A stretch of DNA of 64,000 bases from Arthrobacter sp. S41 (lineage in GTDB: Bacteria > Actinomycetota > Actinomycetes > Actinomycetales > Micrococcaceae), in NCBI RefSeq assembly GCF_004320535.1, contig NZ_SIHY01000001.1, positions 248,001 to 312,000 of the forward strand. Reading direction: 5' to 3'. Made by a program: the position numbers and the translations under genes. The notes beneath the pieces were generated by a model. That model saw only the letters and a program-made list of their open reading frames with translations, had not been told where the DNA came from and ran no database searches. This document shows positions 47,846 through 64,000 of this stretch, in pieces. The first letter of the stretch is position 1, and each line of letters begins with the position of its first letter.

Positions 47846-48307
47846 CTATACGAAGTTTTCAGTTCCTTCAACGGTGTTCATGAAGTGATCCATGAACTCA
47901 GCAAAGTCCTGAGCATCTGACTCTTGATCAATAACGGCACCAACGCTCACCGCGTCATCGATATAAAAATCAATGCTCGGCTTAACCGGGATGGTGAAGC
48001 GGAAGACTCGTCCAGTGGAGGTGGCGACTTCATAGCCGCCGTCTACAAGCTGGGCAAGCTGGTTCACATTGGTGTTATTGATATTGATGGCGTCTTCGGA
48101 GGCCCGCAAGTCACTGGAATTCACCGGAGCGATGATCAGTTCTGCTGGCTGACGCCGATAGCCGATGACCTTAAGTCCTCCGGAACCGGCAATACCAGTT
48201 CCAGCTACAAGGTTGTAGCTGGCGAAATTAGGGATCTGCGAATCGAACGCGTCGTGAAGACGCGCTTTGACCTGCTCGGCTGGATTTTCGTCTGGGCGGT
48301 TGTCCAT
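47846..48307 (-). CDS. conserved-looking hypothetical protein
   Basis: A 153-residue soluble, acidic protein of unknown function. It contains a mixed alpha/beta pattern (SYNLVAGTGIAGSGGLKVIGYRR, ELIIAPVN, RVFRFTIPVKPSIDFYIDD) and ends in an acidic helix (DAQDFAEFMDHFMNTVEGTENFV). No catalytic motif or membrane segment is visible. ATG 48307 is used, with GGTAGAG/AGGAG just upstream; a TTG at 48337 in frame would add ten residues. It diverges from ilvD. Confidence 0.6.
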   Translation of the reverse strand: MDNRPDENPAEQVKARLHDAFDSQIPNFASYNLVAGTGIAGSGGLKVIGYRRQPAELIIAPVNSSDLRASEDAININNTNVNQLAQLVDGGYEVATSTGRVFRFTIPVKPSIDFYIDDAVSVGAVIDQESDAQDFAEFMDHFMNTVEGTENFV

Positions 48308-48424
48308 GTCTCCTACTCTACCGATATCTTTGGACAATTTGATCAGTCATAACATTTATTGAAACATGTCATGGTTACGTCATGGGTTGCTCAATTGGTC
48401 ATATTGACGACTAGAATGAAATTT

Positions 48425-50128
48425 ATGAGCCAGGATGCTACGCCAGATATCAAACCACGTTCCCGTGTGGTCACCGATGGTATCCACGCCGCTCCGGCGC
48501 GCGGTATGTTGCGTGCCGTCGGCATGGGCGATGATGACTTCGCAAAACCTCAAATTGGTATTGCCAGTTCATGGAACGAAATCACTCCATGTAACCTTTC
48601 GCTTAATCGTCTAGCCCAAGGCGCCAAAGAAGGCGTTCACGCAGGCGGCGGTTTCCCCATGCAGTTCGGAACCATCTCCGTATCTGACGGCATTTCTATG
48701 GGCCATGAAGGAATGCACTTCTCACTGGTTTCACGAGAGGTCATTGCCGACTCGGTAGAAACAGTGATGATGGCCGAACGGCTTGACGGCTCAGTGCTGC
48801 TGGCCGGCTGTGACAAGTCGCTGCCGGGAATGCTCATGGCAGCTGCCCGACTGAACCTCTCATCAGTGTTCCTCTATGCCGGTTCCATCATGCCGGGCTG
48901 GGTCAAGCTAGAAGACGGTACCGAAAAAGACGTCACCTTGATTGACGCCTTTGAAGCTGTAGGTGCTTGCGCGGCCGGGCGAATGAGCGAAAAAGATTTA
49001 GATTCTATTGAACGTGCCATCTGTCCAGGCGAAGGTGCCTGTGGTGGCATGTACACGGCCAACACCATGGCATCAATCGGTGAGGCCCTGGGCATGAGCC
49101 TTCCGGGTTCCGCCGCTCCACCGTCAGCCGATCGACGCCGCGACATGTTTGCGCACCGCTCCGGTGAAGCCGTGATTGAAATGTTGCGCAAGGGAATTCG
49201 CGCCCGCGACATTATGACCAAAGAAGCCTTTGAAAACGCTATTGCCGTCATGATGGCCTTCGGCGGTTCAACCAATGCAGTGTTGCACCTATTGGCCATT
49301 GCTAAGGAAGCCGAAGTTGAACTGTCGCTGAGCGACTTCAACCGCATTGGAGATAAGGTTCCGCACCTAGCGGACCTGAAACCATTTGGCCGTTACGTGA
49401 TGAACGACTTAGACCGCATTGGCGGTGTCCCCGTAGTGATGAAGGCGTTGCTAGACGCAGGATTGATCCACGGCGACTGCCTGACGGTCACCGGCAAGAC
49501 GGTTGCTGAAAACCTCGCGCACATCGCTCCACCAGATCCGGACGGCAAGATCCTTCGTGCCATGGACAACCCGATCCACAAGACCGGTGGGGTGACCGTG
49601 TTGCATGGTTCGCTGGCTCCCGAAGGTGCAGTGGTGAAGTCCGCCGGCTTTGATGCTGATGTCTTTGAAGGTACCGCTCGCGTCTTTGAACGTGAACAAG
49701 GCGCACTTGAAGCACTGGATGCAGGAAAGATTCACGCCGGAGATGTGGTGGTCATTCGTTATGAAGGACCCAAGGGTGGACCGGGTATGCGAGAGATGTT
49801 GGCCATTACCGGAGCCATCAAGGGCGCCGGTCTAGGTAAGGATGTCTTGCTACTTACCGATGGACGCTTCTCCGGTGGAACCACCGGATTGTGTATTGGA
49901 CACGTGGCACCTGAAGCCGTTGATGGGGGGCCCATTGCCTTTGTGAGCGACGGAGATAAGATCCGTGTGGATATTTCGGCACGGAGTTTTGACCTCTTGG
50001 TTGATCCCGAAAAATTGGAAGCTCGCAAGATTGGGTGGAAGCCCTTGCCAGCGAAGTTCACCACGGGTGTGCTGGCCAAGTACGCAAAGCTAGTCAATTC
50101 TGCTTCGACAGGCGCGTATTGCGGCTAA
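48425..50128 (+). CDS. ilvD: dihydroxyacid dehydratase IlvD
   Basis: Fe-S enzyme forming 2-oxo acids from dihydroxy acids, the third step of valine and isoleucine synthesis after IlvBN and IlvC. The cluster cysteines are in [11 protein letters not shown] and [16 protein letters not shown], with a third expected near the N-terminal third (ITPCNLSL); the C-terminal [20 protein letters not shown] is diagnostic. ATG 48425 gives 567 residues, the usual length; earlier in-frame ATGs at 48359 and 48416 seem to belong to the leader. It has its own transcription unit just before ilvBNC. Confidence 0.94.
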
Positions 50129-50179
50129 GCAGCAGAAAATTCATGGTGTGGGTGAGACGAAGCGTCCACACCATGGACA

Positions 50180-50202
50180 TTCATCTCATATACTGAGATG
50201 AA
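50180..50202. promoter_or_regulatory. 9-bp inverted repeat between ilvD and ilv leader
   Basis: TTCATCTCA and TGAGATGAA flank a TATAC spacer. No T run follows, so it looks more like an operator than a terminator. It lies about 48 bp before the leader-peptide start. Confidence 0.4.
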
Positions 50203-50249
50203 CGGGGCGTCTATTTGCTCTTTACCCTCGGGTAGAGAAAACTAGAGGC

Positions 50250-50297
50250 ATGCAAACAAACTTCGATGTTCTACTAGTTATCAGGCGCGGAGCCTGA
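50250..50297 (+). CDS. ilvBNC leader peptide (15 residues)
   Basis: ATG 50250 opens MQTNFDVLLVIRRGA followed by TGA. Five consecutive regulatory residues, Val-Leu-Leu-Val-Ile, are exactly the branched-chain amino acids made by the operon, as in known ilv attenuators. Ribosome stalling on these codons would change folding of the downstream RNA and prevent the terminator at 50340-50379. GAGG lies just before the ATG at short spacing. Confidence 0.8.
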   Translation: MQTNFDVLLVIRRGA

Positions 50298-50339
50298 GAC
50301 GCTGTCGCACTAAGCGGACAGAACATCGGTAACGCGCAA

Positions 50340-50379
50340 GCCCCCTTTCGTCAGTAGCGACGGCCGCGGGGCGTTTTTT
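50340..50379 (+). terminator. attenuator terminator of ilvBNC
   Basis: GCCCC (50340-50344) pairs with GGGGC (50368-50372), reinforced by inner CGTC/GACG pairing, followed by TTTTTT. It lies between the leader peptide and ilvB. An alternative CTGTC/GACAG hairpin just upstream may help switching. Confidence 0.75.
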
Positions 50380-50416
50380 ATGCGCAAACGAAGAGATAGA
50401 AATGGAAAGGATCCCG

Positions 50417-52300
50417 ATGAGCAACTCAACACCCGCCAACCCGGCGTCGGTTGCGAATTCAATCAATCGAACCAAGGATGCCACCGCCGCTGTCTCTTCC
50501 GTTGTGGAAGCTTCGAACCCGGTACAGGGTCCGAATACTATCGTTGCTCCCACACAGATGACGGGCTCACAAGCCATCGTCCGCTCGCTGGAAGAACTAG
50601 GCGTCAAAGACGTCTTCGGATTGCCAGGTGGGGCCATCCTTCCCACCTATGATCCACTGATGGATTCGACCAAGATCAACCACGTCTTGGTCCGCCACGA
50701 ACAGGGTGCCGGCCATGCCGCACAGGGTTTCGCCATGGCTAGCGGTGAGGTAGGCGTTTGTATCGCTACCTCCGGCCCCGGCGCAACCAACCTCGTCACC
50801 GCACTGGCCGATGCCAATATGGACTCGGTCCCAATGGTGGCAATTACCGGTCAGGTGCACAGCGCATTTATTGGCTCTGACGCATTCCAGGAAGCAGACA
50901 TTGTCGGCATCACGATGCCGATCACTAAGCACGCTTTTTTGGTCACCAAAGCAGAAGACATTCCCAAGACCTTGGCCAGTGCCTTCTACCTAGCTCAGAC
51001 CGGTCGTCCCGGTCCGGTGCTGGTAGATATCACCAAGGATGCCCAACAGGCGGATATGACCTTCTCGTGGCCACCAAAGGTGGAATTGCCTGGATACCGT
51101 GTGGTGACTCGTGGTCACAACAAGCAGCTACGCGAAGCAGCCAAGCTGATCGCCGGCGCAACTCGTCCGGTGCTCTACGTAGGCGGCGGCGTCATCAAGG
51201 CCAACGCTCACGAAGAGCTGAAGGAATTTGCGGAATTCATCAACGCGCCAGTGGTCACCACCCTGACCGCACGCGGTGCGTTCCCTGACTCCCATGTACA
51301 GCACGTGGGCATGCCTGGCATGCACGGTGCAGTATCCGCGGTGACTGCACTGCAGCAGTCAGACTTGCTGATCACCCTGGGTGCTCGCTTTGATGACCGT
51401 GTCACCGGTGTGCTCTCATCCTTCGCTCCTAACGCGAAGGTGATCCACGCCGATATCGACCCAGCGGAAATCTCCAAGAATCGTGTAGCAGATGTGCCAA
51501 TTGTGGGCTCGCTGGATGAGATCATCCCGCAGCTGCAAGAAGCCTGCGCTACCCGCTTTGAAAACGAGCCTCAGGCCGATCTGACCGGTTGGTGGGGACT
51601 GCTGAACCGTCTGCGTGAAACCTATCCAATCGGTTACACACAAACCCAGGATGGACTCTCCGCGCCACAGAACGTGATCCAGCGTATCGGTGAACTCACC
51701 GGTCCTGACGGCGTTTACGTAGCCGGTGTAGGCCAGCACCAGATGTGGGCAGCCCAGTTTGTTAAGTATGAGCGTCCACGCTCCTGGCTGAACTCGGCCG
51801 GTCTTGGCACCATGGGCTTCTCGGTACCTGCAGCAATGGGTGCCAAGGTGGCCCAGCCTGAGCGTGTGGTCTGGGCTATTGATGGAGACGGTTGTTTCCA
51901 GATGACCAACCAAGAGTTGGCCACCTGCGTGATCAACAAGATCCCCATCAAGGTTGCCATCATCAACAACTCTTCACTGGGTATGGTTCGTCAGTGGCAG
52001 ACCCTGTTCTACGACGGCCGTTACTCCAACACCGATCTGAACACCGGTCACGGCACTGCACGCATTCCCGACTTTGTGAAGTTGGCAGATGCCTACGGTT
52101 GTGTGGGACTGCGTTGTGAACGTGATGAAGACATTGACGCCACCATCAAGCAGGCTTTGGAAATCAATGACCGCCCAGTGGTGATCGATTTTGTTGTCTC
52201 GGCTGATTCGATGGTGTGGCCAATGGTTCCTTCGGGAGTCAGCAACGACCAAATTCAGATTGCTAAGGGCATGACCCCTGAATGGGAAGAGGAGGACTAA
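50417..52300 (+). CDS. ilvB: acetolactate synthase large (catalytic) subunit IlvB
   Basis: TPP- and FAD-dependent enzyme condensing pyruvate with pyruvate or 2-oxobutyrate. The catalytic glutamate lies in [15 protein letters not shown], and the TPP/Mg motif is [19 protein letters not shown] with [12 protein letters not shown]. The 627-residue chain has a longer N-terminal extension (about 45 residues) than enterobacterial forms, common in actinobacteria. ATG 50417 has AAAGGA upstream; ATG 50402 is five codons earlier. First structural gene of the attenuated operon; works with the IlvN subunit immediately downstream. Confidence 0.95.
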
Positions 52301-52303
52301 AAC

Positions 52304-52822
52304 ATGGCAAAGCACACGCTTTCGGTACTGGTAGAAGACGTACCTGGTGTACTCACCCGAGTAGCTAGCCTCTTCGCCCGCCGTGCCTTCAACATTCACT
52401 CATTGGCTGTAGGCCCCACGGAAATTGACGGCATTAGCCGCATGACCGTAGTGGTTGACGCCGAGGGCGATTCCCTAGAACAGGTGACCAAGCAGCTGAA
52501 CAAGCTGATCAACGTCATCAAAATTGTCGAACTGCTGCCGGAAACCTCGGTGCAGCGCGACCACATCATGGTCAAGGTGCGTGCCGACGCGGCAACCCGC
52601 CTGCAGGTGACCCAGGCTGCGGAACTCTTCCGTGCCTCGGTGATCGATGTGTCTACCGACTCGCTGGTAGTGGAAGCTACCGGCAACGCGGCAAAGATTG
52701 AAGCGCTCTTGGCGATCCTTGAGCCTTTTGGCATTCGAGAGATTGTTCAGTCCGGCACCCTCGCGGTGGGACGTGGCGCCAAATCAATGAGCGACCGCGC
52801 ACTAAAGTCCCTCTCTGCCTAA
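52304..52822 (+). CDS. ilvN: acetolactate synthase small (regulatory) subunit IlvN
   Basis: A 172-residue regulatory subunit giving valine feedback control and full activity to IlvB. The N-terminal ACT domain starts LSVLVEDVPGVLTRVASLFARRAFNIHSL; the C-terminal domain includes ELLPETSVQRDHIMVKV and the FGIREIVQSGTLAVGRG ending. It begins three bases after the ilvB stop with GAGGAGG upstream, so the subunits are co-translated in order. Nothing is truncated. Confidence 0.95.
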   Translation: MAKHTLSVLVEDVPGVLTRVASLFARRAFNIHSLAVGPTEIDGISRMTVVVDAEGDSLEQVTKQLNKLINVIKIVELLPETSVQRDHIMVKVRADAATRLQVTQAAELFRASVIDVSTDSLVVEATGNAAKIEALLAILEPFGIREIVQSGTLAVGRGAKSMSDRALKSLSA

Positions 52823-53956
<1,134 letters not shown>

Positions 53957-53992
53957 TCGCGAGCTGAGAACTAGCTTTATTATCTGAAAGCA

Positions 53993-54034
53993 GCTGGCTC
54001 TGAACGATAGGAATATCGTTTAGAGCCAGCGGTT
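53993..54034 (+). terminator. terminator of ilvBNC operon
   Basis: GCTGGCTCT plus AACGATA (53993-54009) pairs with TATCGTT plus AGAGCCAGC (54014-54030) with one G-T pair and a GGAA loop, then GGTTTTCG. Confidence 0.85.
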
Positions 54035-54229
54035 TTCGTTTAAATGCATGTTGCGTCCATTCTGCGATGAGCGCATCGAAAAGGGAGCTGCACTCCTGCT
54101 GTGTGCTGAAGTGCCGCGGCCTGAAGGAACTTTAGTATTCAATCTTTTAGTGTAAGAATTGTTCCGGGCGAGAGCAGAACGAACAATGCCGCCGCCGCTG
54201 TTCAATAGCTGATAGTTCAAGGAGCAAAA

Positions 54230-54637
54230 GTGGCTAGCGAAGATATTGAGATCGTTTCTGATGGAAATGGCGTGGCAGTCCTTGGCGAACGCAGCGCCGT
54301 TGACAAATTCGTGGAATCCGTCGGCTTGATTTCCAAGGAACTGCCCTTGGAACGCGTAAGCAAAGCAGCTGGCCACAGTGCAACCGCGATGCAAGCCGGT
54401 AGCGGGATTGCGCAGACGTCCGGACGCTGGATCAAGCTCTCGGAAGACTCAGCACGGATCTTCAATGCCAAGAACCTGATGGCTGGATCGGAGAACGGCC
54501 TGGCGCGTGCAGTCGTCATGAAAGATGGCAAGATCAGCAATTTGCTTGAAATCGTCACCAGCCCAACGGCGATGCTTTCAAACCCGGCTGTTCTGGCAGG
54601 CGTGGGTGGAATTATAGCCCAATACGCGATGCAGTAG
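54230..54637 (+). CDS. unrecognised protein, N-terminal part (ends at amber codon)
   Basis: A 135-residue frame from GTG 54230 with AAGGAG six bases upstream. It includes GNGVAVLGERSAVDKFVESV, QAGSGIAQTSGRWIKLSEDSARIF and a glycine/alanine-rich hydrophobic end (NPAVLAGVGGIIAQYAMQ) that may insert in or lie on a membrane. The frame is closed by a single TAG at 54635-54637, but continues open in the same frame into 54641-55495. From memory, intact relatives run through this junction with a glutamine there; CAG to TAG is one base change. Function unknown. Confidence 0.6.
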   Translation: MASEDIEIVSDGNGVAVLGERSAVDKFVESVGLISKELPLERVSKAAGHSATAMQAGSGIAQTSGRWIKLSEDSARIFNAKNLMAGSENGLARAVVMKDGKISNLLEIVTSPTAMLSNPAVLAGVGGIIAQYAMQ

Positions 54638-54640
54638 AGC

Positions 54641-55495
54641 ATGGATGAGATCACCGATTACTTGAAGGTGATCGACGAGAAAATTGACGATATCCTCCGT
54701 GCGCAGAATGACGCGGTCCTAGCGGATCTTGATGGTGTTGGAATGCTCATCGATGATGCCATGGTCGTGCGCGACCAAGTGGGGCATATCGGCGAGACGA
54801 CATGGTCAAAGGTTAATTCGAATGCCAAGACCATCGCAACGACCCAGTCCTATGCGCTGCGGGCCTTGGCAGGATTAGCTGAAAAGCTGGAAAACAAAAC
54901 GAAGATGGGTGAACTGGCCAAGATCACCCGCGAGATCGAATCAAAGGCCACCCAGTGGTTGGCAGTATTGGCACGTTGCTTCCAACTCGAAGACGGCATG
55001 TCTGTTCTGGAACTGGACCGTGTGCTCAACGGGTCTCCTGACGAACTGGAGAATCATCGAATCGCGCTGCAGATCGCGCGCGAACGCAGAATCGCACACA
55101 TTACGAAGGTGACCGAGCAGCTTCTTGAGCGAATCGCTGTCGTCGCCGGACTGGCGAATTCAAAGGTGCTGCTGCATCCGAAGTCATCGAGCGAAGTCGT
55201 GAAGGCGACGAATGCCGTCTCGAATGATCTAGTGGAATTCCAAAGCCGATTGGGAATCGAGAGCGCCTACGGGGCACTGGAGTCAAAGAAGTGGCTCAAG
55301 GCTGTCTCCGAGGTTCGGGACAAGGTGACTGATGCAGGCGCTGATGGCTTGAGCGCAATCAAGCAGTTTGGGGACGAGACGAAGAACCGTGCCCTGGACA
55401 AAGCCGAGGACGTAGCAACTTCATTTGCCGAGAATATCAAGAAAAGCCGCAGTGGGGAGTCCGCGAAGGATTCTCCAGAAGCCATTGAGAAGTAG
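54641..55495 (+). CDS. unrecognised helical protein, C-terminal part of the split gene
   Basis: A 284-residue frame in phase with the preceding one, starting only one codon (AGC) after the amber stop. It begins MDEITDYLKVIDEKIDDILRAQ and is almost wholly helical with heptad-like leucines (about residues 1-60, 80-105, 135-170), ending in a charged tail. ATG 54641 has no credible ribosome-binding site, which supports its being the rest of a 421-residue protein rather than an independent gene. It might still be expressed by re-initiation or readthrough. No function can be named. Confidence 0.55.
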   Translation: MDEITDYLKVIDEKIDDILRAQNDAVLADLDGVGMLIDDAMVVRDQVGHIGETTWSKVNSNAKTIATTQSYALRALAGLAEKLENKTKMGELAKITREIESKATQWLAVLARCFQLEDGMSVLELDRVLNGSPDELENHRIALQIARERRIAHITKVTEQLLERIAVVAGLANSKVLLHPKSSSEVVKATNAVSNDLVEFQSRLGIESAYGALESKKWLKAVSEVRDKVTDAGADGLSAIKQFGDETKNRALDKAEDVATSFAENIKKSRSGESAKDSPEAIEK

Positions 55496-55548
55496 GAGCT
55501 GGCGGAGCTAGATTCTTCCCTCGCACTTGGCTCCATTGCATTTCAAAT

Positions 55549-55599
55549 AAATCGACCTCGGTTACTTCCGATATGGGAAGTAACCGAGGTCGATTTTTT
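55549..55599. terminator. bidirectional terminator
   Basis: A 21-bp perfect stem (55549-55569 with 55576-55596) around CGACCTCGGTTACTTCC and its complement, with A and T runs on its flanks, between convergent genes. Confidence 0.9.
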
Positions 55600-55631
55600 A
55601 GTCTGCTGGGTCGGATACCAGCCAGGCAGGC

Positions 55632-56240
55632 TTAGAGCTTCGAAGCCCGGTAGCCGGCCTTGCGCGCATCAGCTGCAGTCTTGAAGCATTCTTCTGGCTT
55701 CGTGATGTTGTAGAAGCGCTGTCCCTTGACGTGGTACTTCCACTCCTTCTGGCTGCCGGTGCGGTTGCCCTTCACCGGGTAGCCTGCAGGGCAGTTCTTT
55801 GCCTTGCCGCTCATCTTCACGGAACGCTTGGCGGCCGCCTTCTTCACCAGCAAGGTCTGCGTCTTCTGAATGGTCGAGGTCTTGCCCTTGAGCTGGTACT
55901 TGACCGTGGTGGTGACCTTGTAGGTGCCCGCTGCGAGCTTGACGGACTTCTTCTTGCTGGCGACGGTCTTCTTGCCCTTGACCACCTTCAGCAACGCCGA
56001 CTTGATCTTCACGTTCTTTGCCTTGGAATAGCTAGGCTTGATGGTTGCCTTGGCTGAACCCTTGACAGTCTTCGTGCCAATTTTCTTGATCGTTACCGCA
56101 GGAGCCTTTTTCTTCGCAGCAACGATGCTGGCAGATGAAATGCTGGTGGGCAACGGAGCGGCCGAGGCCGCGGAGACACCGGAGAATACAAGTGCTCCCG
56201 AAGCGATGACAGCGAGTGAACGCTGAACTAATTTATTCAA
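55632..56240 (-). CDS. secreted lysine-rich protein with C-terminal sunset-type domain
   Basis: About 202 residues from TTG 56240, which places a classical signal peptide at the start (MNKLVQRSLAVIASGALVF, cleavage near ASA); GGGGAG lies three to four bases before it. A very lysine-rich, beta-strand-like middle (TIKKIGTKTVKGSAKATIKP, VKGKKTVASKKKSVKL) resembles a wall- or polyanion-binding Ig-like domain. The end carries the short actinobacterial motif called sunset: NCPAGYPVKGN, WKYHVKGQRFYN and ECFKTAADARKAGYRASK. Function unknown; export and envelope association are inferred. Confidence 0.75.
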   Translation of the reverse strand: MNKLVQRSLAVIASGALVFSGVSAASAAPLPTSISSASIVAAKKKAPAVTIKKIGTKTVKGSAKATIKPSYSKAKNVKIKSALLKVVKGKKTVASKKKSVKLAAGTYKVTTTVKYQLKGKTSTIQKTQTLLVKKAAAKRSVKMSGKAKNCPAGYPVKGNRTGSQKEWKYHVKGQRFYNITKPEECFKTAADARKAGYRASKL

Positions 56241-56452
56241 TTTCTCCCCATAGAAAGTCGAGCGAGCATGGGCACTGATCGGTCCCATGTGCTGATTCTA
56301 ATCTGGACTGGGAATAGAAACTATGGCTGGACGCGATTGTGATCGATTGCGGCTATTGCCGTCAAAGCGTTACCCGAGCAGTCGAGTGTTTTCCCAATGA
56401 TTAGTTGAAGCCTTTGCTAGGCTCGGGCAAAACCATGCAAAGGAGGGCGCCC

Positions 56453-57157
56453 ATGCCACAGGAAAGCAACTACGACGATTTCGCCCAGGACTACGCTGAC
56501 GAGAACGAATTCAGCATGCTGAACGCCTACTATGAGCGGCCGGCCACCTTGGAACTGGCAGGAGAGGTTGCCGGCCGGAACATCCTGGATATCGGCTGCG
56601 GCGCCGGTCCGCTGTCGGAACAGCTCATGAGCCGTGGAGCGAGCGTCTCGGGCTTCGACACCAGCCGGGCAATGGTGGACCTGGCACGCCAGCGGCTGGG
56701 CGAAGATGCCGACCTGAAAGTGGCGACATTGGGGGAGAAGCTCCCGTATGCCGACAACAGTTTTGACGATGCCATTGCTTCCTTGGTGTTCCACTATTTG
56801 CCGGACTGGGACTACGCACTGGAGGAAGTCCGCCGGGTCCTCAAGCCCGGCGGCCGGCTCATCATGTCGGTGAACCATCCGATTCTCTACCCGTTCAACC
56901 ACCGAGGCAAGGACTACTTCCAGCTCACCCAGTACACCGACGAAGTGACTTTCAAGGGGAAGCCTGCCGAACTGACCTATTGGCATCGGCCTTTGCATGA
57001 AACCATGAAGGCACTGATCTCCGCAGGGTTCGCGGTGGAGCGTGTTTGGGAGCCGCCGTATGCCAAGGATGCGCCCGAAGGCGTGATTCCAGAAGCCTTG
57101 CGTGAACGCGACGCGTTCTTGAGCTTCCTGTTCTTCTCGCTGCGCTCGACGCGCTAG
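56453..57157 (+). CDS. class I SAM-dependent methyltransferase
   Basis: A 234-residue methyltransferase with the Rossmann-like fold. SAM-binding motif I is NILDIGCGAGPLSEQLMSRG (about residues 44-63), motif II GFDTSRAMVDLARQRL, then DDAIASLVFHYLPDW and the motif RRVLKPGGRLIMSVNHP. It resembles UbiE/type-11 enzymes that methylate small molecules; substrate unknown. ATG 56453 follows AAAGGAGGG. The frame is open from 56405 but lacks a second ribosome-binding site. It lies beside rhamnose genes, converging on rmlA, without a clear link. Confidence 0.87.
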   Translation: MPQESNYDDFAQDYADENEFSMLNAYYERPATLELAGEVAGRNILDIGCGAGPLSEQLMSRGASVSGFDTSRAMVDLARQRLGEDADLKVATLGEKLPYADNSFDDAIASLVFHYLPDWDYALEEVRRVLKPGGRLIMSVNHPILYPFNHRGKDYFQLTQYTDEVTFKGKPAELTYWHRPLHETMKALISAGFAVERVWEPPYAKDAPEGVIPEALRERDAFLSFLFFSLRSTR

Positions 57158-57213
57158 CCAGCGCACTGCTTCCAGGTGCCAACGGCGTCCGGAAGCCGCG
57201 AAGCCCTCGAATG

Positions 57214-58131
57214 TCAGCTGATAGCCGGCATAGCGGCAGGACGCGTTGAATGATGGGGATCGACGAAACTGTTTTCTGCCAGCTGAAGCAAGTAAGCGCC
57301 ATACCCGCTCTTGCCCAACTCCCGGCCCAAAGTGCGCAACTGGTCATCGCAGATGAACCCCTGGCGCCATGCAACTTCCTCGGGAGAACCGATCTTCAAA
57401 CCCTGCCGCGCTTCGACAGTGCGCACGAAGTTGGAGGCGTCGTTGAGCGAATCGAAGGTTCCGGTATCAAGCCACGCAGTTCCGCGGGCCAGCACCGTGA
57501 CGTTGAGGTTGCCCTCTTCGAGGTACAAGCGGTTGATGTCGGTGATCTCAAGCTCTCCACGGGCCGAAGGCTGCAATGTCCGGGCTTTGCCAACCACGGA
57601 ATTGTCGTAGAAGTACAATCCCGGAACAGCGTAGTGGCTTTTCGGGTCCAGCGGCTTCTCTTCCAGCGATACGGCCCTTCCGGAGCTATCGAACTCGACG
57701 ACGCCGTAGGACCTGGGATCCTTGACCCAGTAGCCGAAGATCGTCGCGCCGGTCTGGTCGGCGTAGCTTCCCAACTGGGTGCCGAACCCCGGTCCATGGA
57801 AGATGTTGTCACCCAGCACCAGCGCCACGGATTCCCCTCCGATGTGCTCGGCGCCAAGTATGAACGCTTGGGCCAGGCCTTCAGGCCGGGCTTGCACGGC
57901 ATAGGACAGATTGATGCCGAACTGCGAGCCATCGCCGAGCAAGGACTTGAACTGCCCCTCATCCTGCGGCGTCGTGATGACCAGGATGTCCCTGATTCCA
58001 GCGAGCATGAGCGTGGTCAGCGGATAGTAGATCATCGGCTTGTCGAAGACAGGCACCAATTGCTTTGAGATGCCTCGCGTGATCGGGTGCAAACGAGACC
58101 CGGTTCCCCCAGCTAGAATTATTCCCCTCAT
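57214..58131 (-). CDS. rmlA: glucose-1-phosphate thymidylyltransferase RmlA
   Basis: First enzyme of dTDP-L-rhamnose synthesis, joining dTTP and glucose 1-phosphate. [38 protein letters not shown] starts the chain in pieces typical of the nucleotidyltransferase fold (GGxGxRLxPxT, then [16 protein letters not shown]). [32 protein letters not shown] and the [11 protein letters not shown] loop are diagnostic. ATG 58131 gives 305 residues with a short tail beyond the usual length; the frame's earlier start would overlap the divergent promoter. It diverges from rmlB across about 105 bp. Confidence 0.94.
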
Positions 58132-58149
58132 GGCTATCGAGCCTAATGA

Positions 58150-59252
<1,103 letters not shown>

Positions 59253-59253
<1 letters not shown>

Positions 59254-60674
59254 TGGGCGGCGCGGCGCAGCTACGGGTGGAGGGCAGCCCGATTCAAGGA
59301 CTCGAGGTGGTCAGCCTACCGGTGCACCGCGATGAGCGCGGCTGGTTCAAGGAGAACTGGCAGCGGGAGAAAATGGTGGCTGCGGGTTTGCCGGACTTCC
59401 GCCCGGTGCAGAACAATGTCTCCTTCAATGGCCCGCGCGGGACCACTCGCGGATTGCACGCCGAGCCATGGGACAAATACATTTCGGTGCTGTCTGGAGA
59501 GATCTTCGGCGTCTGGGTGGATCTGCGTCCCGGGCACGGTTTCGGCAGCCTGTTCACCGCGAAGATGGGCGAAGGCCAAGCGGTCTTCGTGCCACGCGGG
59601 GTGGCCAATGCCTTCCAGACCTTGGCCTCGAACACCGTGTACTCCTACCTGGTCACCGAGCACTGGACAGAGGCAGCCCGGTTGGAATACAGCTACGTCA
59701 ATCTGGCCGACCCGGATTTGGACATCCCCTGGCCCATCAGCTTGGATGAGGCCATAGTTTCACAGGCGGACAAGGAGCACCCACCGCTGGCGCAGGCGAA
59801 ACCAGTGCAGCCCAAGAAAATTGCGGTGCTCGGCGGGAACGGTCAGCTCGGACGTGCCTTCGCTCAACTGGCGAAGTCAGATGAACGGATCGCTTTGTAT
59901 ACCCGCGCCCAGACCGACTTGCAGTCCCCGGGCTTCGCGGCATCGCTGGACCTTGCCAATTGCAGCCACGTGGTCAACGCGGCGGCGATGACCTCAGTGG
60001 ACCGGGCCCAAACCCCTGCGGGCAGTGCCGAAGCGTGGCAAGTCAATGCCGTGGCCGTGCGCCAGCTGGCGGCACGATGCGGTGAGCTGGGGGTGCCGCT
60101 GGTGCATGTTTCCACCGACTATGTGTTCGATGGCGCGCAACGCGAGGTCGATGAGCTGCATCCGATCGCGCCGCTCGGAGTCTACGGCCAAAGCAAGGCC
60201 GCTGGCGAGCAGGCTGTGCTGGCTCACACCGGCAACTATGTGGTGCGCACCAGCTGGGTTATCGGGCAGGGCAACAATTTCGTGTCCACCATGCGCCGAC
60301 TGGCCGAGCAGGGAATCGCGCCCAGGGTGGTCGATGACCAAGTTGGACGACTGACCTTCGCCAGCGAGTTGGCCCGCGGCATCATGCACTTGCTGGATAC
60401 CGGCAGCGCCCCGGGGATCTATCACCTGCAGGGCGGCGGCGAACCCGCCAGCTGGTACCAGGTTGCCCGCGAGGTCTTCGCCTTGTGCGGCCATGACCCG
60501 GATGCCGTGCAGCCGGTTTCCACCCGGGAGTATGCCTTGGACCGGCCCCATCTGGCACCCCGGCCGGTAAACAGCACGCTGGACACCGCAAAATTGCAAG
60601 CGACCGGCTTTGCGCCGAAGCCGTTATCCGACTTGCTGGACCAGTTCCTTGGCCAGAATCGTGTGACGTCATAA
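59253..60674 (+). CDS. fused dTDP-4-dehydrorhamnose 3,5-epimerase-like / dTDP-4-dehydrorhamnose reductase (RmlC-RmlD)
   Basis: A 473-residue bifunctional protein. Residues about 8-185 form an RmlC-like cupin: VHRDERGWFKENW, NVSFNGPRGTTRGLHAEPWDKYISVLSGEIF, VFVPRGVANAFQTLASNTVYSYL. The place where classical RmlC has AHGF reads ANAF, so one normally conserved histidine is asparagine. Residues about 193-473 form RmlD: KKIAVLGGNGQLGRAF, VHVSTDYVFDG, YGQSKAAGEQAV and the RPVNSTLDT ending. Together with RmlA and RmlB it completes dTDP-L-rhamnose for cell-wall polysaccharide or glycolipid. Confidence 0.9.
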
Positions 60675-60718
60675 AAACCGGGTAGGTAAAAATCGGGTGT
60701 GGTCCAAGTGGAGGGCAG

Positions 60719-60868
60719 GTGAACGGAAAGAAACCCTCAGTCAGGTTCGACCATCCTGCGCACGGTGAGAGTTGTTCCAAGTCAATTTCAGAATTTGCGG
60801 GGACGAATTCGTTGTTGCCGAGTGATGGCGAAGTGCTGTGCATTCACTGGGAAAAGAAGAAAAAGTGA
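60719..60868 (+). CDS. possible 49-residue small protein
   Basis: GTG 60719 has GGAGG four to five bases upstream and opens 49 codons, with MNGKKPSVRFDHPAHGESC at the start and VLCIHWEKKKK before TGA. It lies in the 335-bp gap between the rmlCD fusion and the large regulator. Composition is plausible but no homologue is known to me. Otherwise the gap shows no recognised motif. Confidence 0.28.
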   Translation: MNGKKPSVRFDHPAHGESCSKSISEFAGTNSLLPSDGEVLCIHWEKKKK

Positions 60869-61009
60869 CTGAGCTTCATTTATCCTGCCGAACCCAGTGA
60901 TCTCGCTGCCTTTAAGTCATAGGATGGGGAAATACGAGGAAGAGTCCAGGCGGATTCTTTCGCGGATAAGCGGTTAATTTGGGGGAACGAACCGATTGGG
61001 GCGGTTTGA

Positions 61010-63646
61010 ATGATGGAATATTCACGAATTCTCTCGCTGGCGGGCACTCGCAATGCTCAAGCGCAGCGGGGAGATAGTAAGACAACTTCGAAACTCTCGC
61101 GGATTTCGCAAGGCATTTTGGGCAGAGTCCTGAACGACCCGCATTGCGCCGGAGCTGTGGTCTCCGGACCAGTGGGCAGCGGTCGAAGGGCGCAGCTGGA
61201 AACCGACTTGGGCCAGATGGCCGAGCCGCCGAAGCTGATCCGGCTGAACGGAAGCAACTTCGGCACGAAAGTGCCTTTCGGTGTGCTTTCATTCCTGCTT
61301 GCCCAAGTCGACGTGGCCGGAGCTTCGAGCCGTCATGAGCTGATCCACCAGCTGGGCCGGGTGCTGTGCACCGACCAGCGCCCGTCAATGGTGGTGCTCG
61401 GGCGGCCTGAATTGATCGACGAGCAATCCAGCTCCTTGCTCGCCCAGCTGGCCACGATGGGCAAGATCAAGCTTTTCGTGATCTGCGAACACGTGCAGGA
61501 TCTTCCTGGGGACCTGTTCGCCTTGTACCGTTCGGGCCGGCTGGCGCACCAGCGCGTCGAGCGCATGGGCAGCATGGAAACGCACGCTTTCGTCCAGCAG
61601 GAATTGGAAGGGCGGGTCTCCGCCTACGCCTCGGCAACCCTGTGCTACTTGGCCGGGGGCAACCGCTCGCTGATGCTCAAGTTGATGCACAGCTGGCGCG
61701 AAGACGGCCATCTGCTGCAGCACAACGGTACCTGGGCCTTGCGGATAAACGCGCTCGATTCCGGGCCTGCGATGCAGGCCCTGCACGTTTCGCTGACCCA
61801 TGGGCTCGATGACGGTGAACGCGAACTGCTCGGGGCCCTGGCACTGGGCGGGCCGGTGGAACTCAACCGCATCCGGCGTTCGGGCCTGACCTGCGAGCTT
61901 GACGGCTTGCTGAACCGTGGCCAGGCCAAGTACCTGACCGGCGCCGCCTACAAGGTAGGCATATCCAATCCGCTGCTGTCCCTGCTCGTGCGCGCCGAAT
62001 CCAGCAATCAGGCTCACCCTCACGGTGCGGAACTGCTGGCCAAGTTGCACAAGAACCCATTGGCTGCCCGGATCCTTGCGCAACTGAAATCCCTGAACGA
62101 CCTTGGCGACTACGAATCGCAGCTCAGGGTGGCTGAAGACTTCCAGCAGCAGGGCTATCACGCCGAACGCTGGCCAACTGACCCGCGCACCCTGGTGGGC
62201 ATCGTGGAAATGCACGTGCGCGCGCTGGCCATGCTCGGCCAGTTGTCCCACGGACTCGAAGCAATCGACCTGGCCAGGGCGGGACTGGCCCAGGCCATCA
62301 GGGAATCCGGCCCGCGCGAATCCCTGGATATCGCATTCCAGGAACTGGAACTGCTCAGCACGTTCGCGACCTTATTCAGCACCGAGATGACCAAAGAAAC
62401 GAGCATCGCCGGCAGCAGCGAGTCACTGCTGTCTTCGTCAGGCTGGATGAGCGAGTCATTGCACCTGCGGTCCCTGTCGTTGCAAGCTGCCAGCTGGGCG
62501 GCGCAGTCGCGACAGGCCGATGCCATGAAGCTGGTCCGTTACGTGGACGGGGAACTGCGCAATATCCGCTTCAACGGCCCGACGATCTCGAATTTCCATT
62601 CCGAGGACGCAGCAGACATAGAGTTCCAGCTGCTCCAGGCCGAATTGCTCTCCGGAGTCTGGAACGCGGCATCAGCCCGCGCCCAGCGCCTGGCCGAAGG
62701 GCAGTACATCAGTCCCTTGCTCATTTCCTACGGGGACATCATGCGGGGGATCCTGCTGGGACTGGGCAATGAGTACGACGCTGCCTTGCGCCTGCTGGAA
62801 CCGAACCTGCACCAGATGCAAGTGGCCGGAGACCGGGGAACCGAAGCACTAATTGGGTCGGTCATTGCCTATGCGCTGGCTTGCTCCGGGAGGCGGGTGG
62901 AGGCAGCCGCACTGGTATGCCCTGAATACGGGACCCCCGGAGCAATGCAGATGCCGCTGAACTTCTACTCCTGGGCGGCAGAAGTCTTCTCCTGCCTTGC
63001 GTTGGCCGAACTCGGCTCGCCGCAGGCTGCAAGGCTGCGGCTGGCAACCTTCGCCCAGCGTGCCCGCGGCGGCCAGCACACCCTGCTCGAAGCGCTGACC
63101 TTGGGGTTCGCCGCACGGCTGGGAGACCAGCTGGTGCTGCCGCAGCTGCGCAGCGCCGCCAGACGCTGCGAGGGCCTTGTCGGACAGAACCTGGAGGCGC
63201 TCGCAGACGCGGCGTCGGCCAAGGACTCGCCGCGCTTGGCAGCGGCTCTGGACAGCATGGTCGAGGCCGGGCACTTGCTCATGTCCGTGCCATCGAACAA
63301 CGAGTTCGTCGCATCAATGGAAACCAGGGACCAGCGCAAGCTTTCCCGGACAGTCAACGGCCGCAAGCGGGCCTCGGCTCCGCAGATCCAGCAGCACGAC
63401 GAGCTGCAGTTTGAAGCCATCGAACAGCAGCCGGGCTGGATGCGCGAGCTGACCAAGCGTGAGGCCCAGATCGCCAAGATGGCCATAACTGGCAAAACGA
63501 ATTCGGAAATTGCCAAATTCAATGGCGTCTCGATTCGCACCGTGGAGGGGCATCTTTACCAGGTATATTCCAAGCTCCAGGTCCGAAATCGCCAGGAGCT
63601 CACTGCGCTTGACCGCACCAGCCGCCGTACCGCAGGGCTGCGATGA
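61010..63646 (+). CDS. large LuxR-family regulator (LAL-type) with degenerate ATPase domain
   Basis: An 878-residue regulator. The N-terminal AAA/STAND-like region has a weak Walker A (VSGPVGSGRRAQL, about residues 49-61; the lysine is missing) and MVVLGRPELIDEQS in the Walker B place. A long helical, repeat-like middle (about 300-790) follows, then a C-terminal LuxR helix-turn-helix, LTKREAQIAKMAITGKTNSEIAKFNGVSIRTVEGHLYQVYSKL (read in two parts, residues about 817-860). ATP hydrolysis is doubtful; DNA binding is likely. ATG 61010 or 61013 starts it. It overlaps the next regulator by 4 bp. Confidence 0.86.
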   Translation: MMEYSRILSLAGTRNAQAQRGDSKTTSKLSRISQGILGRVLNDPHCAGAVVSGPVGSGRRAQLETDLGQMAEPPKLIRLNGSNFGTKVPFGVLSFLLAQVDVAGASSRHELIHQLGRVLCTDQRPSMVVLGRPELIDEQSSSLLAQLATMGKIKLFVICEHVQDLPGDLFALYRSGRLAHQRVERMGSMETHAFVQQELEGRVSAYASATLCYLAGGNRSLMLKLMHSWREDGHLLQHNGTWALRINALDSGPAMQALHVSLTHGLDDGERELLGALALGGPVELNRIRRSGLTCELDGLLNRGQAKYLTGAAYKVGISNPLLSLLVRAESSNQAHPHGAELLAKLHKNPLAARILAQLKSLNDLGDYESQLRVAEDFQQQGYHAERWPTDPRTLVGIVEMHVRALAMLGQLSHGLEAIDLARAGLAQAIRESGPRESLDIAFQELELLSTFATLFSTEMTKETSIAGSSESLLSSSGWMSESLHLRSLSLQAASWAAQSRQADAMKLVRYVDGELRNIRFNGPTISNFHSEDAADIEFQLLQAELLSGVWNAASARAQRLAEGQYISPLLISYGDIMRGILLGLGNEYDAALRLLEPNLHQMQVAGDRGTEALIGSVIAYALACSGRRVEAAALVCPEYGTPGAMQMPLNFYSWAAEVFSCLALAELGSPQAARLRLATFAQRARGGQHTLLEALTLGFAARLGDQLVLPQLRSAARRCEGLVGQNLEALADAASAKDSPRLAAALDSMVEAGHLLMSVPSNNEFVASMETRDQRKLSRTVNGRKRASAPQIQQHDELQFEAIEQQPGWMRELTKREAQIAKMAITGKTNSEIAKFNGVSIRTVEGHLYQVYSKLQVRNRQELTALDRTSRRTAGLR

Positions 63647-64000
63647 AACAGCATCAACTGATTGCCAAGACCAGGACAACTGAATACAACCAGCTGCTGC
63701 AGATCCTGCAAGGGCCAGGTCCTGCCGGCGTCTTGCTGCTGGGCGAGCAGGGCGTGGGCAAGACCAGCCTCGTGGAGGCAGTGCTGGCTTCCCCGGGCAT
63801 GGGCGAGCCGGTCATGACGCTGTATTGCACGCCGTCCTTGAGCACTATTGCCCATGGTGCCTTGTCGCCATATCTGGGGGCCCTGGAGAGCATCGACGAG
63901 CCGGTGAGCGTGCTGCGCGAGCTGAATCGGAGCCTGCTTTCCAGCCGCGGGCAGGTTGAACCGCATATCGTTGTGGTCGAAGACGCGCAGTTCCTGGACC
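63643..64000 (+). CDS. ATP-binding regulator, probably LAL-type, truncated by window end
   Basis: ATG 63643 overlaps the preceding stop by 4 bp and the frame is open to the window edge (119 codons). It has an intact Walker A, LLLGEQGVGKTSLVEAVL (about residues 31-48), and a Walker B-like HIVVVEDAQFLD near the edge. This is the start expected for a LuxR/LAL ATPase like its neighbour, but with a functional-looking nucleotide site. The rest, including any DNA-binding domain, lies outside. Confidence 0.75.
   Translation, partial: MKQHQLIAKTRTTEYNQLLQILQGPGPAGVLLLGEQGVGKTSLVEAVLASPGMGEPVMTLYCTPSLSTIAHGALSPYLGALESIDEPVSVLRELNRSLLSSRGQVEPHIVVVEDAQFLD

Follow-up and report, generated by a model that had tools for sequence, protein, structure and literature searches.

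Introduction

Nonsense pseudogenes of accessory genes are an established general class in bacterial genomes. The gene described here resembles them in its one premature stop, its intact orthologue at the same locus, its patchy presence and the existence of other decaying copies, and it differs from them in that our copy carries no further damage, with decay at most just begun. A second point of comparison is provided by gene pairs coupled by termination-reinitiation, in which (Huber et al. 2023, PMC10666635) the downstream start lies within a few nucleotides of the upstream stop, as it does here; however, in our case the spacing is +3 nt instead of an overlap, the start has no Shine-Dalgarno (SD) sequence and no other near-full-length copy (0/64) shares the arrangement. 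We analysed a window of 64,000 nucleotides from Arthrobacter sp. S41, in which an earlier note, made from the sequence, had described an unrecognised gene split by a single in-frame amber codon. We consider it likely that an uncharacterised accessory gene, some 421 codons long, is represented here by a nonsense-interrupted copy, an incipient pseudogene.

Results

The coordinates of the locus are collected in Table 1. As the earlier note had described, the two open frames lie in one phase and are parted by TAG and AGC (54638-54640) only, and the ATG at 54641 reopens the frame of part 1 for 284 codons, up to a closing TAG at 55493-55495. Its reading of the start signals, strong for part 1 and none for the second ATG, was borne out by duplex energies calculated for the 20 nt upstream of each start against an anti-Shine-Dalgarno tail, which were -7.5 kcal/mol at GTG 54230 versus -2.1 kcal/mol at ATG 54641; 84.5% of 400 random ATGs of the window equalled or surpassed the second start in pairing.

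Table 1. Features of the interrupted gene and its slot (positions in the window)
Feature	Position	Strand	Remarks
Left slot edge: terminator-like hairpin downstream of ilvC	53993..54030	+	
Ribosome-binding site AAGGAG of part 1	54219..54224	+	5 nt upstream of GTG; duplex energy -7.5 kcal/mol
Part 1, codons 1-135	54230..54634	+	GTG start; N-terminal alpha/beta region and helix ~119-133 (low-confidence models)
In-frame TAG, codon 136	54635..54637	+	sense codon at this alignment column in 64/64 other near-full-length copies
Part 2, codons 138-421 and final TAG	54641..55495	+	predicted helical region; ATG without ribosome-binding site
Right slot edge: terminator-like hairpin between the broken gene and the secreted-protein gene convergent with it	55549..55596	.	

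When part 2 alone was searched in 58 genomes (its own and relatives), matches were found in 14, and in 12 of the 13 matching genomes other than its own it lay within open frames of 432-616 codons, the remaining one (G047) holding a 3' remnant of the gene. The joined frame aligned through the junction with all 12 open-frame relatives, end to end, and since it thereby matches one single-chain family over its whole length, the split frame is no chance product. The closest relative, from Glutamicibacter ardleyensis (NZ_BMKX01000010, L016:5590-6852), is intact, has 421 codons and is 79% identical over the full length (71% between part 1 and its residues 1-135); it is also syntenic, being flanked, like the window copy, by ilvB, ilvN and ilvC to its left and by the gene of a lysine-rich secreted protein to its right. 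A set of 65 distinct near-full-length copies, that of the window among them, was drawn from 396 genomes of the order, plasmid records and earlier loci; duplicate loci and matches of fewer than 330 profile positions (L015, L056, L057, L058, L059 and second pieces) were left out. Among these 65, an internal stop in the protein body was found in the window copy only, the stops of the other rows lying at the C-terminal end of the match. All 64 others are single chains that span the junction, and the column of the stop holds Gln in 48 of them, Ala in 8, Glu in 4 and Leu, Arg, Asp and His in one each. The Gln-rich junction that the earlier note had mentioned, and the single-chain homologues of the joined 421-residue translation that it had proposed to look for, were therefore both found; a two-ORF arrangement was kept in 0/64, and what it had named as contrary evidence, homologues consisting of two separate proteins in which the stop and a second ribosome-binding site are conserved, did not occur among these copies.

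Compared with the G. ardleyensis orthologue, part 1 gave a dN of 0.178 and a dS of 1.50, and part 2 a dN of 0.106 and a dS of 3.44 (NG86; dS is saturated in both), which indicates that both halves were under purifying selection during most of the divergence from the orthologue. With the copy of genome G002 as outgroup, 13 unique changes were counted in part 1 of the window copy versus 6 in the orthologue, and 13 versus 14 in part 2, and the end branches in the tree were 0.16 versus 0.094; these values would give at most a hint of relaxed selection on the window copy. A gene still working in two pieces would likewise be compatible with selection that is not clearly relaxed. No frameshift or further internal stop was found in the window copy and, taken together with the past purifying selection, the lack of a second lesion suggests that the stop either arose recently compared with the divergence from G. 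ardleyensis or is an error.

The gene was found in 60 of 396 genomes of the order and in 7 of 296 genomes of a phylum sample (own genome included in both; two of the 7 matches are weak). Within the genus it occurs in 3 of 18 genomes, whose copies form one clade (100/100). Four plasmid records, from Streptomyces, Arthrobacter, Gordonia and Corynebacterium, carry it too. Two of the plasmid copies, L022 (pGKT1) and L023 (pJCM19266a), have DUF262 proteins and DNA methyltransferases within ~6 kb, both of which are common neighbours in restriction or defence clusters. Decaying copies were seen in G347 (frame change and stop), G307 (pieces in two frames), G047 (see above) and G401 (internal deletion and late stop), and they show that the gene is lost repeatedly. 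The profile is that of a dispensable accessory gene, for which a role in defence or competition is a reasonable guess.

In all three carriers of the genus the copy is flanked by ilvC and the secreted-protein gene; in G002 a 204-residue ORF precedes it. In 9 of the 15 non-carriers of the genus ilvC directly adjoins the secreted gene, while a methyltransferase gene stands beside ilvC in 3/15 and other content in 3/15. The hairpin at the right edge of the slot is kept in G011 and G013, both of which are without the gene, and in G013 a few bases between the two terminators replace the 1.49-kb gene unit. Between the window and G002, ilvC differs by 2% and the interrupted gene by ~46%, so evolution or exchange is much faster in the gene than around it. 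An operon partner was sought in the gene flanks, often 1-1.5 kb. The only neighbour family judged a possible partner is that of a putative membrane protein adjoining 5 of the 65 copies, in three lineages; one of the five is the 204-aa protein of G002 (L085:6409-7023), directly upstream of the intact copy and without a Pfam match. As a conserved partner we rejected it, since it is not in the window's slot and is present in 0/4 other genomes of the genus. The remaining recurrent neighbours are the shared chromosomal surroundings of close relatives.

Two further observations concern the surroundings of the slot. In G005 (L162) the slot after ilvC holds other cargo, namely ORFs of 208 and 143 aa followed by a duplicated piece of the ilvC 3' end, as if the end of ilvC served as a landing site. 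In the window itself, positions 55546-64000 (8.5 kb), whose genes we take by resemblance to encode a secreted protein, a methyltransferase, rfbA, rfbB and further products, are 97% identical to G011, and left of 53958 the matched DNA is mostly 62-92% identical (500-base bins). Identity changes sharply at the terminator that directly follows the broken gene, and this suggests a recent exchange of a surface-polysaccharide region.

Searches of the two halves against Pfam, NCBIfam and PADLOC gave a few weak matches (best E 0.021), every one of them below its curated cut-off where there is one. For 12 other members, Pfam, PADLOC and PHROGs returned matches to one member each only, the best being Orbi_VP6 (E 0.00038) and PHROG 23215 (E 0.0041). 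We regard all these matches, those of the two halves included, as chance. Judged by these profile matches, there is no credible family assignment from Pfam, NCBIfam, PADLOC or PHROGs. By sequence, the PDB yielded one weak match (E 0.046) with the intact orthologue as query and no match to the 12-row family profile up to E 10, and no relatives were found in viral contigs and phage records. An AlphaFold model of the intact orthologue (three-sequence input; mean pLDDT 60) has strands and helices in residues 1-117 (low confidence), a helix at 119-133 and long helices between 138 and ~340; block means of pLDDT are 45-58 as far as residue 160 and 72-89 over 161 to 340. The stop maps to the gap between the helices ending at 133 and starting at 138, where confidence is below 50. 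The N-terminal region modelled alone reached a mean pLDDT of 53, too low for a fold search. Foldseek with the model of the orthologue gave no match at E 0.001 or better. VIA matches were to mixed helical bundles including syntaxins, MukF and JukB at Z 10 to 11.3 (model mean pLDDT 60), which is below the level that the tool itself rates informative for helical bundles. JukB (PDB 9jht_B), described in a review (PMC13282480) as the pore-forming effector of the Juk anti-phage system, aligned with the helical region of the family at Z 10.9 over 156 residues; however, syntaxins and MukF score equally high and the family profile has no PDB sequence match up to E 10, and we do not regard this alignment of a predicted structure as evidence of kinship. 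A hydropathy of 1.6 in any 19-residue stretch was reached by 14 of the 65 copies, the window copy not among them, and a firm membrane span is not predicted from these values.

Discussion

We propose that the gene was inherited intact in a Glutamicibacter lineage, in the slot between the ilvC terminator and the second terminator, and that the stop at codon 136 would be a recent acquisition. Ribosomes starting at GTG 54230 would then produce the N-terminal 135 residues and none of the helical region, which accounts for two thirds of the protein, and because these two thirds are missing, function was most likely lost; minor output of part 2 may arise from ribosomes reinitiating at the ATG 3 nt downstream. 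The stop was seen once, in the one genome of its species that was analysed. The broken copy is most likely ordinary in kind and represents no new kind of gene.

The earlier note had left three readings side by side: a recent nonsense mutation, a sequencing error, and regulated readthrough or re-initiation. The mutation is the one we favour. An error of sequencing or assembly, with the gene intact in the organism, comes second and seems unlikely to us; it would account for one substitution seen in one assembly of 7 contigs, in a gene that is otherwise undamaged and was under strong past constraint, but 11 neighbouring genes from 47846 to 64000 showed no lesion in comparison with G011 (one of them, at the window's end, was covered over 119 of 895 residues only). 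The only stop met in that comparison, of a G011 ORF with the window, falls before the probable start of gene 47846-48337, which is a real gene and intact in the window. Moreover, completeness of the genome is rated at 99.99% and contamination at 0.15%, and other decaying copies exist in the family. Regulated readthrough fared worst. Since the tRNAs include no CTA anticodon and the gene itself ends in TAG, readthrough has no support beyond leakiness, and programmed readthrough or amber recoding of the UAG is, in our view, extremely improbable even though open frame extends to either side of the stop and most relatives have Gln at the column. The tRNA search covered the whole genome, where 65 Rfam tRNA places (58 stretches, each with at least one tRNA by ARAGORN) held 42 anticodons and no UAG-reading tRNA, and the stop itself is present in 0/64 other near-full-length copies.

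Reinitiation is more plausible than readthrough, because the ATG lies only 3 nt past the stop, and some part 2 could be made in this way. In E. coli reporter pairs a 2-nt spacing lowered reinitiation by 5, 20 and 70%, and another study, as cited in the same article, found a tenfold loss at +3 nt (Huber et al. 2023, PMC10666635). That both parts are produced, part 2 by termination-reinitiation, and reassemble at a natural joint into a two-piece protein, we hold to be quite improbable. The position of the stop between predicted helices 119-133 and 138-184 (pLDDT below 50 there) and the low dN/dS kept in both halves would agree with it, yet the ATG at 54641 has no SD sequence upstream, the two-frame arrangement occurs in 0/64 other near-full-length copies, and the selection measured mostly predates the stop. 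That both pieces are made and cooperate, the gene thus becoming two, is in our estimate very improbable; if true, it would be an undescribed actinobacterial protein caught while turning into two genes. A working two-piece protein is the sole surprising reading left, and an improbable one.

Our best guess, weakly held, is that the intact protein serves in self-protection or competition, acts close to a membrane and can be dispensed with. For annotation, the two open frames here would be treated as one broken gene. The intact members of the family, patchy in distribution, plasmid-borne and, in this genus, found in a recurrent slot behind ilvC, are candidates for functional study.
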